From the NCBI GenBank assembly GCA_021845905.1, contig JAJZVA010000001.1, positions 1-64,000 on the forward strand: a DNA stretch of 64,000 nucleotides. The letters are read 5' to 3'. This document shows, piece after piece, positions 27,305-64,000 of the stretch. Below the pieces are notes generated by a model. That model saw nothing but the letters and a program-made list of their open reading frames with translations, had not been told where the DNA came from and made no database searches. How positions within the stretch are numbered: position 1 is the first letter of the stretch; every line of letters begins with the position of its first letter. A program made the position numbers and the translations under genes. The DNA comes from Pseudomonadota bacterium. GTDB lineage: Bacteria; Pseudomonadota; Alphaproteobacteria; Micavibrionales; UBA2020.

Positions 27305-29443
27305 CTATGCCGTCGTTTTTCTGTTTTTCTGCTGCGGCTTCGCGTTCGCGACCTCCATGGGGAGCTCGATGATGAACGTCGTGCCTTTCCCCGGTTCCGA
27401 CTCGACCGTCAGGCTTCCGCCGTGCTTCTTGACGACGATGTCGTAGGAAATCGACAGACCCTGCCCCGTGCCTTTGCCCACTTCCTTGGTGGTGAAGAAC
27501 GGGTTGAATATCTTGCTCATGTTCTCCTTGGGGATGCCGCAACCGGTATCGGATACGGCGATGGTCACTTTCTTTTTGGTCGCCGAGGTGGAGATGATGA
27601 TTTTGTTGTTGTCCGGATCGGGCGTATTTCCCGATTTTTCCTCGATGGCGTGCGTGGCATTGACGATCAGGTTCAGGATCACTTGCGTGAGCTTGCCGGG
27701 TATGCACGGCACGGGCGGCAAATTCTCGTCGAATTTCATCTCGACCTGCGTGTAGGATTTCCACTGGTTGCGGGAGACGATAATGGTGTTTTTCAAAGCC
27801 TCGTTGAGGTCGGTGTAAACGATGTCTTCCGTGGCGGGATAGCTGAACCCGCGGATCGCGCCGACGATTTCTATGATCCGACCGACGCCTTCCAGAGACT
27901 GTTCGAGCGCCTGGGGCGTTTCATCGCTGAAAAATCCGATGTCCTGGTTTTTCGCCGACGCGTCGAGCGTCTGCTGCGCCTCCTGCGGCAGGCTTTCCCT
28001 GACGGAGAGGATATCCTTGTAAAACCCGTCATAAGCCTGAAACGCGTCGTTGAGGAACTTTATGTTGTCGCGGACGTATTGCGTCGGCGTGTTGATCTCA
28101 TGCGCTATGCCGCTTGAAAGGCTGCCGAGCGCCTCCATCTTTTGCGCCTGCACCAGCTGCCGTTCGAGGTCCTTGCGGTAGGCGATGTCGCGGAAGACGT
28201 TGACGAAAACGGGGTGACCGTCCTCGCGCGTGACGCTTGTCACGCCAAGCTCGACGGGAAATTCCGTGCCGTCGGATTTTACGCCGGTCACTTCCTGCAG
28301 GCCGCCGTCGACGTGATTGCTGACCCCGCCGCTGATGAAATCCTGCACTTCCTGCATGTATTGTATGGCGGTGTCGGGCGTCAGGAAGTCGCCGATCTTT
28401 TTCTGACGGATCGTCTGCCTGTCGTAGCCGAAAATGCTGCAGGCGCTTTTGTTGAAGGCGACGATGTCGCCCGCCGCATCTATGGTGATGAGGCCGTCCG
28501 CGACGCTGTTGAAGATGGCGTCCAGCTGCCGGGCCGCGGCGGTGCTTTGCTGTTCGGCTTCCTCGGCGCGGCGGAAACCTTCGTGCACCTGCAGCAAAAG
28601 GCTGTTCAGCGCCATGATCACCTCGCCCACCTCGTCGTCAGCGCCTTCGTGCCGGATGATGTAATTCTCCGTGTGGTGCGGGTCCTGGCTCGCGTCGACC
28701 ATGGTCGAGATGATGTTTTCCATCGGCTTGAAGATGTTGAAAAAGATCACCGCGTTGATCAGCAATATCCCGCCGATGCCGAAAACGAGGAACAGCAAGG
28801 GAAACTTGCGGAAGTGCGCCGATTCCGTGAAAGCCCGCGCGGAGAGATCCGACGACTCCTCGTTGATCTTCGTTGAGATCGCGCGAAGATCATTGTCGAT
28901 CACGGCGATCCTGCTATAGGCTTCGGCCATCACTTTTTGGCCCTGCTGCGGGTTGCCGCTGATATAATCGTTCATCGCCACGCGCGGCAGGTCGCGCATC
29001 ATTTTATAGTTCTTCTCGACCGCCGCGCCTTCTGTCGTGAAATCCTCGAGGTTTTGCAGGTAGTCGCCGAACCTGCTGAGATTGCATCTAACGCCGCGCT
29101 CGGCGCTTTGGTCGGGGAGCTGGACGGGCGTTTTGCGCAGGCCGTTGTCGAGGATGGCGAACCAGAACTTGACGGCGCCGAAGCAGCTGATGGTGTCGGA
29201 CAAGACGGCCTGATTGGCCATGATCCGGCTTTGGCTTTCGATCGACTTGTTGCTGGCCCGGGTCTGGGCGATGATGACCTTGTTGGCGTAGAACAAGCCC
29301 GCGAACATCAGGACGCAGATGCCGAGAAGCTTGGTGCGCGTTTTGAAGACGGTGACCTTTTTAAAGGATGTTTCCCGCCCTTTCAGCGGCTCCGCTGGCG
29401 GATTTTGCGACAACCTGTCGGATAACGGGCCATTGTCCATCAT
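27305..29443 (-). CDS. Membrane PAS-domain sensor histidine kinase
   Basis: PAS AIFNSVADGLITIDAAGDIVAFN, H-box SLSSGIAHEINTPTQYV, N-box NLIVNATHAIEE, DTGCGIP, GTGQGLSIS. Confidence 0.92.
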   Translation of the reverse strand: MMDNGPLSDRLSQNPPAEPLKGRETSFKKVTVFKTRTKLLGICVLMFAGLFYANKVIIAQTRASNKSIESQSRIMANQAVLSDTISCFGAVKFWFAILDNGLRKTPVQLPDQSAERGVRCNLSRFGDYLQNLEDFTTEGAAVEKNYKMMRDLPRVAMNDYISGNPQQGQKVMAEAYSRIAVIDNDLRAISTKINEESSDLSARAFTESAHFRKFPLLFLVFGIGGILLINAVIFFNIFKPMENIISTMVDASQDPHHTENYIIRHEGADDEVGEVIMALNSLLLQVHEGFRRAEEAEQQSTAAARQLDAIFNSVADGLITIDAAGDIVAFNKSACSIFGYDRQTIRQKKIGDFLTPDTAIQYMQEVQDFISGGVSNHVDGGLQEVTGVKSDGTEFPVELGVTSVTREDGHPVFVNVFRDIAYRKDLERQLVQAQKMEALGSLSSGIAHEINTPTQYVRDNIKFLNDAFQAYDGFYKDILSVRESLPQEAQQTLDASAKNQDIGFFSDETPQALEQSLEGVGRIIEIVGAIRGFSYPATEDIVYTDLNEALKNTIIVSRNQWKSYTQVEMKFDENLPPVPCIPGKLTQVILNLIVNATHAIEEKSGNTPDPDNNKIIISTSATKKKVTIAVSDTGCGIPKENMSKIFNPFFTTKEVGKGTGQGLSISYDIVVKKHGGSLTVESEPGKGTTFIIELPMEVANAKPQQKNRKTTA

Positions 29444-61770: not shown

Positions 61771-61844
61771 GCGGGTGTAGCTCAATGGTAGAGTTCTAGC
61801 CTTCCAAGCTAGCTATGCGGGTTCGATTCCCGTCACCCGCTCCA
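61771..61844 (+). tRNA. tRNA-Gly (anticodon TCC)
   Basis: GCGGGTG/CACCCGC acceptor, GGTTCGATTCC T-arm, loop CTTCCAA, encoded CCA. Confidence 0.95.
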
Positions 61845-62011
61845 AAAACCACTTCCAAAGACTTCTTGTAGCTTCCCAAGACATCCTTAAAACCACTGAA
61901 AATAAAGCATTTACAGGCGTTTTATTGTCCTGTAAGATTTATCTTAATCCAAGAGCAGCCTAAAATTTTAGGGGTATGTTTTGGGGGTACTTTTAAGCGT
62001 GGGGGTATCTC

Positions 62012-63031
62012 ATGAAGCTAAATGATAAAAAATGCCATAATGCAAAGCCCGAATCCAAGCCATACAAGATGGTGGATGGTGGCGGCCTTTATCTGCTGGT
62101 AACACCGGAAGGTCAAAAATACTGGCGTTTGAAATACCGTTATTTGGGTAAGGAGAAGCTTCTCGCGTTGGGCGTATATCCGCTGACAACGCTGGCGGAA
62201 GCCCGAGAAGCACGGAATCAGGCGAAGAAAATGCTGGTGGCTGGAAAAGACCCGTCCGCCGTAAAGAAGGAAAACAAAAGAAAGGCTTTGCGAGCATCCA
62301 GAAACACCTTTGAAGCCGTTGCCCTTGAATGGCATGAAAAACAGAAAGATATATGGACACCGCATCATGCCGTCAACGTCATGCGCAGACTGAATATTGA
62401 TATATTCCCTTATATCGGGAAACGTCCGATTGCGGATATTGATCCACTGGAATTGCTGGACGAGGTTTTGAGAAAAATAGAAAAGCGGGATTCGCTTTAT
62501 ATGGCTTCCCGCGTCAAACAGATATGCGGACAGATTTTCCGTTATGGCGTTGCTACCGGAAGATGCAAGCGTGATCCATCCACAGACTTGCGCGGCGCTC
62601 TAAAAACGAACAAGACGCGGAATTATCCGGCATTGGATATCAAGGAAATGCCGGAATTTATGACCATACTGGAAAAGAATGATGCTCGCCTGTTTGCCAG
62701 TACGCGCCGCGCTATCCGTTTGCTCATGCTGACATTCACGCGCACAACGGAACTTATACATTCGACATGGGAAGAATTTGACCTTGTAAACGCCATGTGG
62801 GAAATCCCCGCTGAACGGATGAAAATGGGCAATCCGCATCTTGTGCCGTTATCGCTGCAAACAATAGCAATCCTGAAAGAGCAAAAAAAGGAAACGGGGC
62901 ATTTGAACGTGCCTTGGGTTTTTCCCAGCCAAGTCCGCCCCAGAGAACCTATGAGCAATAATACGGTTCTTTTCGCCATCGGGCGCATGGGATACAACAG
63001 GCCACAGCAACGCTGCCGGATGGTAGGTTGA
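62012..63031 (+). pseudogene. P4-type tyrosine integrase, truncated at about codon 328
   Basis: N-terminal domain (GLYLLVTPEGQKYWRLKYRYLGKEKLLALGVYPLTTLAEAR) and first catalytic Arg region (TFTRTTELIHSTWEEFDL) present; normal homology ends at GRMGY(N) before the H-x2-R and Tyr region; the tail is antisense cas1. Confidence 0.9.
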
Positions 63032-63238
63032 GCCGCAAAGTACAATCATGGCTCCGTCATCCATCAGGCGATTTATCAGGTTGAACGAGATGCCGCCATT
63101 CTTGCTTCCTAAAATCAGAACCCCAATATCTTCAACCGGAATTTGGGAAACTTCCTGCCCATCTTTTGAAACGACGAGGAAGCCCCTATTAAGGTTGAGG
63201 TAATGGCCGTCATTCTGGATTTCAATTACCCGTTCCAT
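62996..63238 (-). pseudogene. cas1: Truncated type II CRISPR-associated Cas1, about 81 N-terminal residues
   Basis: MERVIEIQNDGHYLNLNRGFLVVSKDGQEVSQIPVEDIGVLILGSKNGGISFNLINRLMDDGAMIVLCGSTYHPAALLWPV fits type II Cas1 N-termini; then runs into antisense integrase. Confidence 0.85.
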
Positions 63239-64000
63239 GCTTTTTAACGACTTCGGTGTTTAAGGAGCCGGGATCATGAATTCTACCCGTGGGAGAGACA
63301 AATATTTTCCTTGCATTAGTCTCTAGAATTTTATTGAAGGACAAAAATATTTGAATTTTTTCCTCTTTCTGCCGCTCCACTATATTTCCCCCTTCAAAGT
63401 GCTCAGTAAGGACTATGATTTCATTGGCGGGTCTAAGGCTCATAATCCGTGCCGTTTTTTCTTCGCCCTTGTGATCCAGTCTCAATAAGTCCCCCTTATG
63501 TACTTTTATTAAAAGCTTTGCGGCAGGGTGTGGGCGCAACGAGTTCTGATCTTTTTGGTTGGCATCAAAAAGGGAAACGCCCATGTGGACAATTTTCCCA
63601 TCCGGCATCTTCCAGAAAGATACATGGTGAATATCACCGGGGCTGACGCCTTTTATATGCTCCAAATGGCCTTGTTTATGCCGTATCAGTTTCACGGTGG
63701 CATCTTTCTTCAGAATGCGTACACGCCGTATCCCGTTTTCCTCTCCGTATTTTTGTAAGGCGGATTTCAGGGCCTCCGTATCAATTGTCTTCTTTTCCTT
63801 TTTGCCTTTTTGCTTTGTTTCTCCGGGCTGGGAATCAAGGATTTTTTCCAATTCAGCGCGGATCAATGGATCACGTATCTGTCCGACTTCGTTTTGAGTA
63901 AGGCCAGTCAGAGACTTGCGCGTAACAATATTAAATTCGTTTTCCTTTTCCCATTCTGTGCGTTTGTCGGCCTCCGGAGGCAGGGAGGGATGATAAATAA
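63222..64000 (-). CDS. cas9: Cas9-like protein (probable type II-C), C-terminal part; continues beyond window
   Basis: Open frame to the window edge reading ...NIVTRKSLTGLTQNEVGQIRDPLIRAELEKIL...RRVRILKKDATV...HHVSFWKMPDGKIVHMGVSLFDANQKDQ..., resembling RuvC-III end and PI region of II-C Cas9; stop overlaps cas1 start by 17 nt. Confidence 0.8.
   Translation of the reverse strand, partial: IYHPSLPPEADKRTEWEKENEFNIVTRKSLTGLTQNEVGQIRDPLIRAELEKILDSQPGETKQKGKKEKKTIDTEALKSALQKYGEENGIRRVRILKKDATVKLIRHKQGHLEHIKGVSPGDIHHVSFWKMPDGKIVHMGVSLFDANQKDQNSLRPHPAAKLLIKVHKGDLLRLDHKGEEKTARIMSLRPANEIIVLTEHFEGGNIVERQKEEKIQIFLSFNKILETNARKIFVSPTGRIHDPGSLNTEVVKKHGTGN

Follow-up and report, generated by a model that had tools for sequence, protein, structure and literature searches.

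Remnant of a type II-C CRISPR-Cas island at a tRNA-Gly gene, very probably left without guides by one recent deletion

Type II-C cas9 and tracrRNA genes without cas1 and cas2 are known from CampyICE1, an integrase element at tRNA-Met (PMC8743540), and 22% of type II cas loci were counted as having no CRISPR array nearby or none at all (PMC5294841). As to guides, assays in E. coli and in cell-free reactions showed that the Cas9 of Campylobacter jejuni uses host RNAs (ncrRNAs) without an array (PMC8224270), and for array-less III-G loci a recruitment of crRNAs in trans has been proposed (PMC12669027). Chromosomal targeting by CRISPR can also delete or remodel islands (PMC3630108). Here, we describe a locus at which cas9 and its tracrRNA gene are intact while array, adaptation genes and integrase are missing or cut. 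The window, by which we mean the whole stretch of DNA analysed, corresponds to positions 1-64,000 of contig C8 (296 kb) in a genome of 2.42 Mb (26 contigs, 98.8% complete).

The island and its junction

The locus runs past the edge of the window, and the contig positions below use the same numbering. It consists of the following features:

61771-61844, plus strand: tRNA-Gly(TCC), the integration target (ARAGORN; Rfam tRNA, 71.7 bits)
61825-61890, plus strand: attL, the 3′ end of tRNA-Gly and 46 further nt, a direct repeat of attR
62012-62997, plus strand: integrase remnant, residues 1-328 of about 413 (Pfam; intact copy in the same-genus genome G004)
62995-62998, no strand: proposed deletion junction (integrase compared with G004, cas1 with G419, and DNA comparison of both sides)
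62995-63238, minus strand: cas1 remnant, the first ~82 of ~300 residues (TIGR03639 residues 3-85; 59% amino acid identity to the cas1 of G419)
63222-64000, minus strand: 3′ part of cas9 within the window; full gene at 66488-63222 on the contig, 1,088 aa
66566-66664, plus strand, past the window edge: tracrRNA, upstream of cas9 and divergent from it (alignment with the tracrRNAs of seven relatives; folds)
66908-66972, past the window edge: attR, differing from attL by two substitutions and one missing base

The 66-nt att repeat occurs at two places on the contig with 95% identity, and the pair brackets the whole tRNA-int-cas1-cas9-tracrRNA set. The element between attL and attR measures 5.1 kb and contains the int remnant, the cas1 remnant, cas9 and the tracrRNA gene, and nothing else. 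A tyrosine integrase beside the 3′ end of a tRNA gene together with flanking direct repeats characterises P4-type tRNA-targeting elements, and the tRNA-Gly(TCC) and the att repeats bear out an earlier sequence-only reading that had placed a P4-type integrase next to its target tRNA. A joined-flank search for the empty site in relatives gave none, and the flanking genes are not syntenic in G004. Elsewhere in the window, ARAGORN called a 103-nt tRNA-Phe (28472-28574) that is probably spurious; a normal-length tRNA-Phe is present on contig C6.

The integrase ORF (62012-63031, plus strand) matches the Pfam families Arm-DNA-bind_3, Phage_int_M and Phage_integrase. Its arm-binding and core-binding domains are whole, and the Phage_integrase catalytic domain (R, H-x-x-R, H, Y) is incomplete, ending at position 119 of the 172-position profile, at residue 328. 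The C-terminal block that contains HGFR, a later His and the nucleophilic Tyr is absent from the remnant and present in the integrase of G004, which is intact (413 aa), lies at tRNA-Gly and shares 94% amino acid and 92% DNA identity with the remnant over the common part. The alignment of G004 with the window is gap-free from the tRNA to GGATACAA at 62997 and divergent beyond, where the ORF continues past the junction through antisense cas1. The cas1 ORF (63238-62849, minus strand) in turn matches the Cas1 profile only at residues 7-82 of 283 positions. Its alignment with the closest cas1 (G419, 59% amino acid identity) extends to residue 84, ending in HPAALLWPVVSH (~62987-62998), and from about residue 82 onward the ORF is antisense integrase. 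HMM and alignment scores are far above chance.

The sequence-only reading had put the loss of integrase homology at about 62995 and that of cas1 homology at about 62996, and had noted that cas1 overlaps the end of a cas9-like gene. Comparison with the intact G004 integrase places the first point at 62997, the two truncations meet at 62995-62998, the earlier positions are correct to about 2 bp, and the cas1 start at 63238 overlaps the cas9 stop at 63222 by 17 bp. Alignment of the junction to int and cas1 homologues points to a 3-bp microhomology, the CAA at 62995-62997 that both sides would have had in common, an inference insofar as neither parental sequence of this island is known.

Of about a dozen integrases of the int subfamily (at least 70% amino acid identity) fetched from the order, all but one adjoin a recognised tRNA-Gly(TCC), no tRNA having been called at the exception. 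The fetched stretches around them contain no detectable cas genes, so that CRISPR was one of several cargoes carried with this integrase. In G004, the intact tRNA-Gly integrase is directly followed by a 216-aa ORF without an NCBIfam match (L061:9476-10126), and its counterpart in G010 (L107:2456-3073) is 45% identical, a cargo common to the islands of these relatives.

Cas9, tracrRNA and the missing guides

The cas9 gene is cut by the window edge and complete on the extended contig, as the sequence-only reading had thought possible. The 1,088-aa protein matches TIGR01865 with 614 bits over positions 2-1070 of 1070, and in an alignment with 10 relatives all catalytic residues of RuvC I-III and HNH are present: D9 (RuvC-I), the RuvC-II E, the HNH E-H…N and the RuvC-III H..D. 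The arginine-rich bridge helix and the C-terminal motifs are kept as well, and the E that takes the place of D before the HNH His is usual in this clade. The protein has the domains that define a type II-C Cas9; its closest relatives lie outside the genus, the nearest being ~50% identical. The tracrRNA likewise has the anti-repeat and terminator of a type II-C system. Its anti-repeat, GTAACAAG element, stem and terminator are intact and align with the tracrRNAs of seven relatives. An Rfam search of the tracrRNA region offered no better identity and returned just sub-threshold leader matches to the terminator hairpin.

Where a type II-C system has cas1 and cas2 adjoining cas9 without a fourth cas gene, this island has an 82-residue cas1 remnant. 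It carries no cas2 and no array, and there is no gene other than the cas1 remnant between cas9 and int. Matches to cas1 in the genome are confined to this remnant and a second system on contig C6. In most relatives, the anti-repeat and the repeat of the same system agree along 20-25 nt apart from about one mismatch, so that the lost repeat can be predicted and the search for it is calibrated. A pattern search of the whole draft assembly with the predicted cognate repeat, GACCGCAAATTTCTATCTGCTA, allowing three mismatches, found the tracrRNA itself as the sole match, and by this search an array with repeats pairing with the tracrRNA is absent from the assembly; none was found on the island either. 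Given an assembly in 26 contigs, the array may lie on unassembled DNA or on a lost plasmid. Lacking two defining features, the adaptation genes and the array, the locus is a remnant of a type II-C system and not an intact member.

We also considered a natural single guide. Neither the island nor the tracrRNA leader contains a repeat-like segment, and the candidate in the leader, at −10.7 kcal/mol, scored no better than shuffled sequences and was dismissed.

Two loci in other genomes deserve mention. A Cas9 that is 43% identical (G450:C40, L123, 7571-10831) has no detectable cas1 or cas2 and a two-repeat mini-array directly downstream; the same stretch holds an integrase-like gene and, read by eye, a DarT/DarG-like pair, and represents an adaptation-less type II locus with a minimal array. 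In a Hyphomicrobiales II-C locus, a lone near-perfect repeat (one mismatch in 29 nt; L032:9759-9787) lies off-array between tracrRNA and cas9.

The second system of the genome is a complete type II-C system (G000:C6:50001-66000, L038, 4549-13122). It forms an island at tRNA-Phe with an intact P4-type int, a small AlpA-like gene, a 25-repeat array, cas2, cas1, cas9 and tracrRNA in convergent layout, and its other flank holds two genes that by eye resemble a HigB/HigA pair; a second att copy for this island was not found within the 30 kb read. By analogy, it presumably displays the layout that the C8 island had before the deletion. The orphan tracrRNA pairs with the C6 repeat at −9.7 kcal/mol, compared with −37.6 kcal/mol for its own predicted repeat. 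Because of this weak pairing, the C6 system cannot plausibly supply crRNAs, and we discarded C6 crRNAs as guides for the orphan Cas9. The same genome contains another decayed tRNA island on contig C7 (L040, 8017-9903), where tRNA-His is followed by an integrase fragment of ~165 aa and two tandem tRNA-end repeats of 26-27 nt.

Proposed deletion history and rival readings

We consider it very likely that the locus is a type II-C island crippled recently by a single deletion, with Cas9 and tracrRNA left without guides. The ancestral order would have been tRNA, int (plus strand), possibly other cargo, array, cas2, cas1 and cas9 (all on the minus strand), tracrRNA and attR. One illegitimate recombination at ~3 bp of microhomology would then have linked codon 328 of int to codon 82 of cas1, at the expense of the entire array, cas2, the catalytic region of cas1 and the catalytic C-terminus of the integrase. 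The remaining island, in which cas9 and the tracrRNA gene are both intact, would be incapable of spacer acquisition, would make no crRNAs and would have no working integrase of its own. The Cas9-tracrRNA pair is probably inactive as immunity, and Cas9 would now be idle and decaying.

The age of the event can be judged from int. Over the 328 common codons, this branch has accumulated 25 synonymous and 7 non-synonymous changes, and the branch of the intact G004 copy has 23 and 5, respectively. No stop or frameshift has arisen in the remnant since the split; the cas1 remnant is likewise free of frameshifts. Without an excess of non-synonymous changes, int must have been constrained for most of that time, which makes the deletion recent. 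An intact cas9 is therefore expected even if it is useless, and its integrity is no evidence of function or selection.

These results largely agree with the sequence-only reading, which had proposed a single deletion of the C-terminal part of the integrase and most of cas1, probably together with cas2 and the array: Cas9 is intact, no cognate repeat is left, int is intact at the tRNA-Gly of a relative, and the C6 island has the layout expected. Of its claim that the island cannot excise itself, the loss of the island's own integrase stands, whereas immobility is less certain, as at least three further integrases of the same family in the genome could act in trans. Its fixed or orphan effector does lack local adaptation, and the array is gone as well, but given the recent deletion a retained function finds no positive support. 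A comparison with relatives recovered the intact int at tRNA-Gly in G004. Among the genomes compared, one per species, an intact version of this very island, with the same integrase and this cas9, was not found. For this reason, and with the nearest Cas9 only ~50% identical, the single-deletion history is built on two half-matches and an analogue.

One version of this explanation, with the same anatomy, also names a cause. A spacer against the island's int would have led Cas9 to cut int, and microhomology repair would have removed the target together with the array and the adaptation genes. One breakpoint within int, another that spares Cas9 yet removes every guide, and the inferred 3-bp microhomology would all suit such a self-provoked deletion, and there is precedent for chromosomal CRISPR targeting that deletes or remodels islands (PMC3630108). 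We nevertheless regard it as unlikely, since ordinary illegitimate recombination accounts for the same junction and no spacer of the surviving C6 array matches the C8 island; the lost array is unreadable.

Alternatively, Cas9 and tracrRNA might have been retained as an effector that still acts, guided in trans by host-transcript ncrRNAs or incoming arrays. The full-length Cas9 with all its catalytic residues and the conserved anti-repeat, stem and terminator of the tracrRNA would fit such a role, as would the host-transcript guides of C. jejuni Cas9 (PMC8224270) and the in-trans suggestion for III-G (PMC12669027). However, the int and cas1 remnants are just as free of frameshifts, int without relaxation, so an intact cas9 is expected this soon without any function; moreover, the genome holds no repeat-like sequence at three mismatches, and neither the tracrRNA leader nor the island provides a natural single guide. 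We thus consider retention for such a role quite improbable, host RNAs are unlikely to serve as guides here, and there is only a very slim chance that a guide-less Cas9-tracrRNA pair is still expressed and useful, with guides from host transcripts or incoming arrays, beside an orthogonal, complete II-C system.

An assembly chimera or MAG contamination, by which a cas9 fragment from elsewhere came to adjoin an integrase island, could explain why this Cas9 has its closest relatives in other genera, but is highly improbable. The main reason is that the entire unit stands between attL and attR, both of them copies of the same tRNA-Gly end. In addition, the 296-kb contig has host-like genes with same-genus homologues on either side, and the junction lies inside two convergent genes, arranged as the second island would lead one to expect.

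Significance and comparison with known systems

Under the single-deletion history, the locus would provide a snapshot of a mobile II-C system just after the one-step loss of guides, adaptation and integrase, with a scar that is readable to the base and with an intact counterpart available for each half. It adds to the integrase islands at tRNA genes that carry a type II-C system, and this genome has two such islands whose repeats and tracrRNAs do not cross-pair. It might also serve as a natural test of whether an array-less Cas9-tracrRNA pair is lost or is re-armed by an array from elsewhere. With regard to defence, the locus is most likely only in decay, and its importance is for that reason moderate.

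The P4-type tRNA-Gly islands of relatives (G004, G010, G009 and others) share the integrase subfamily (70-94% amino acid identity) and the tRNA-Gly(TCC) target with the C8 island. Their integrases are full length and no cas genes were detected alongside, whereas here int is cut and cas9 is aboard. CampyICE1 resembles the C8 island in combining II-C cas9 and tracrRNA, without cas1 and cas2, with an integrase element beside a tRNA gene, and the species that harbour it often have a second, chromosomal II-C system. In contrast to the C8 island, which has no array, a cut int and a length of only 5.1 kb, CampyICE1 retains a conjugation module and an integrase alongside three short arrays. The orphan cas9 of non-agricultural Campylobacter coli (PMC4607530, PMC8743540) is similarly present without adaptation genes; it has been discussed together with spacers and possible spacer exchange, whereas here no repeat is left and a deletion scar is visible. 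Finally, the isolated array-less type II loci (PMC5294841) kept cas1-cas2, which are lost here as well. Most features of the C8 island thus have published precedents.
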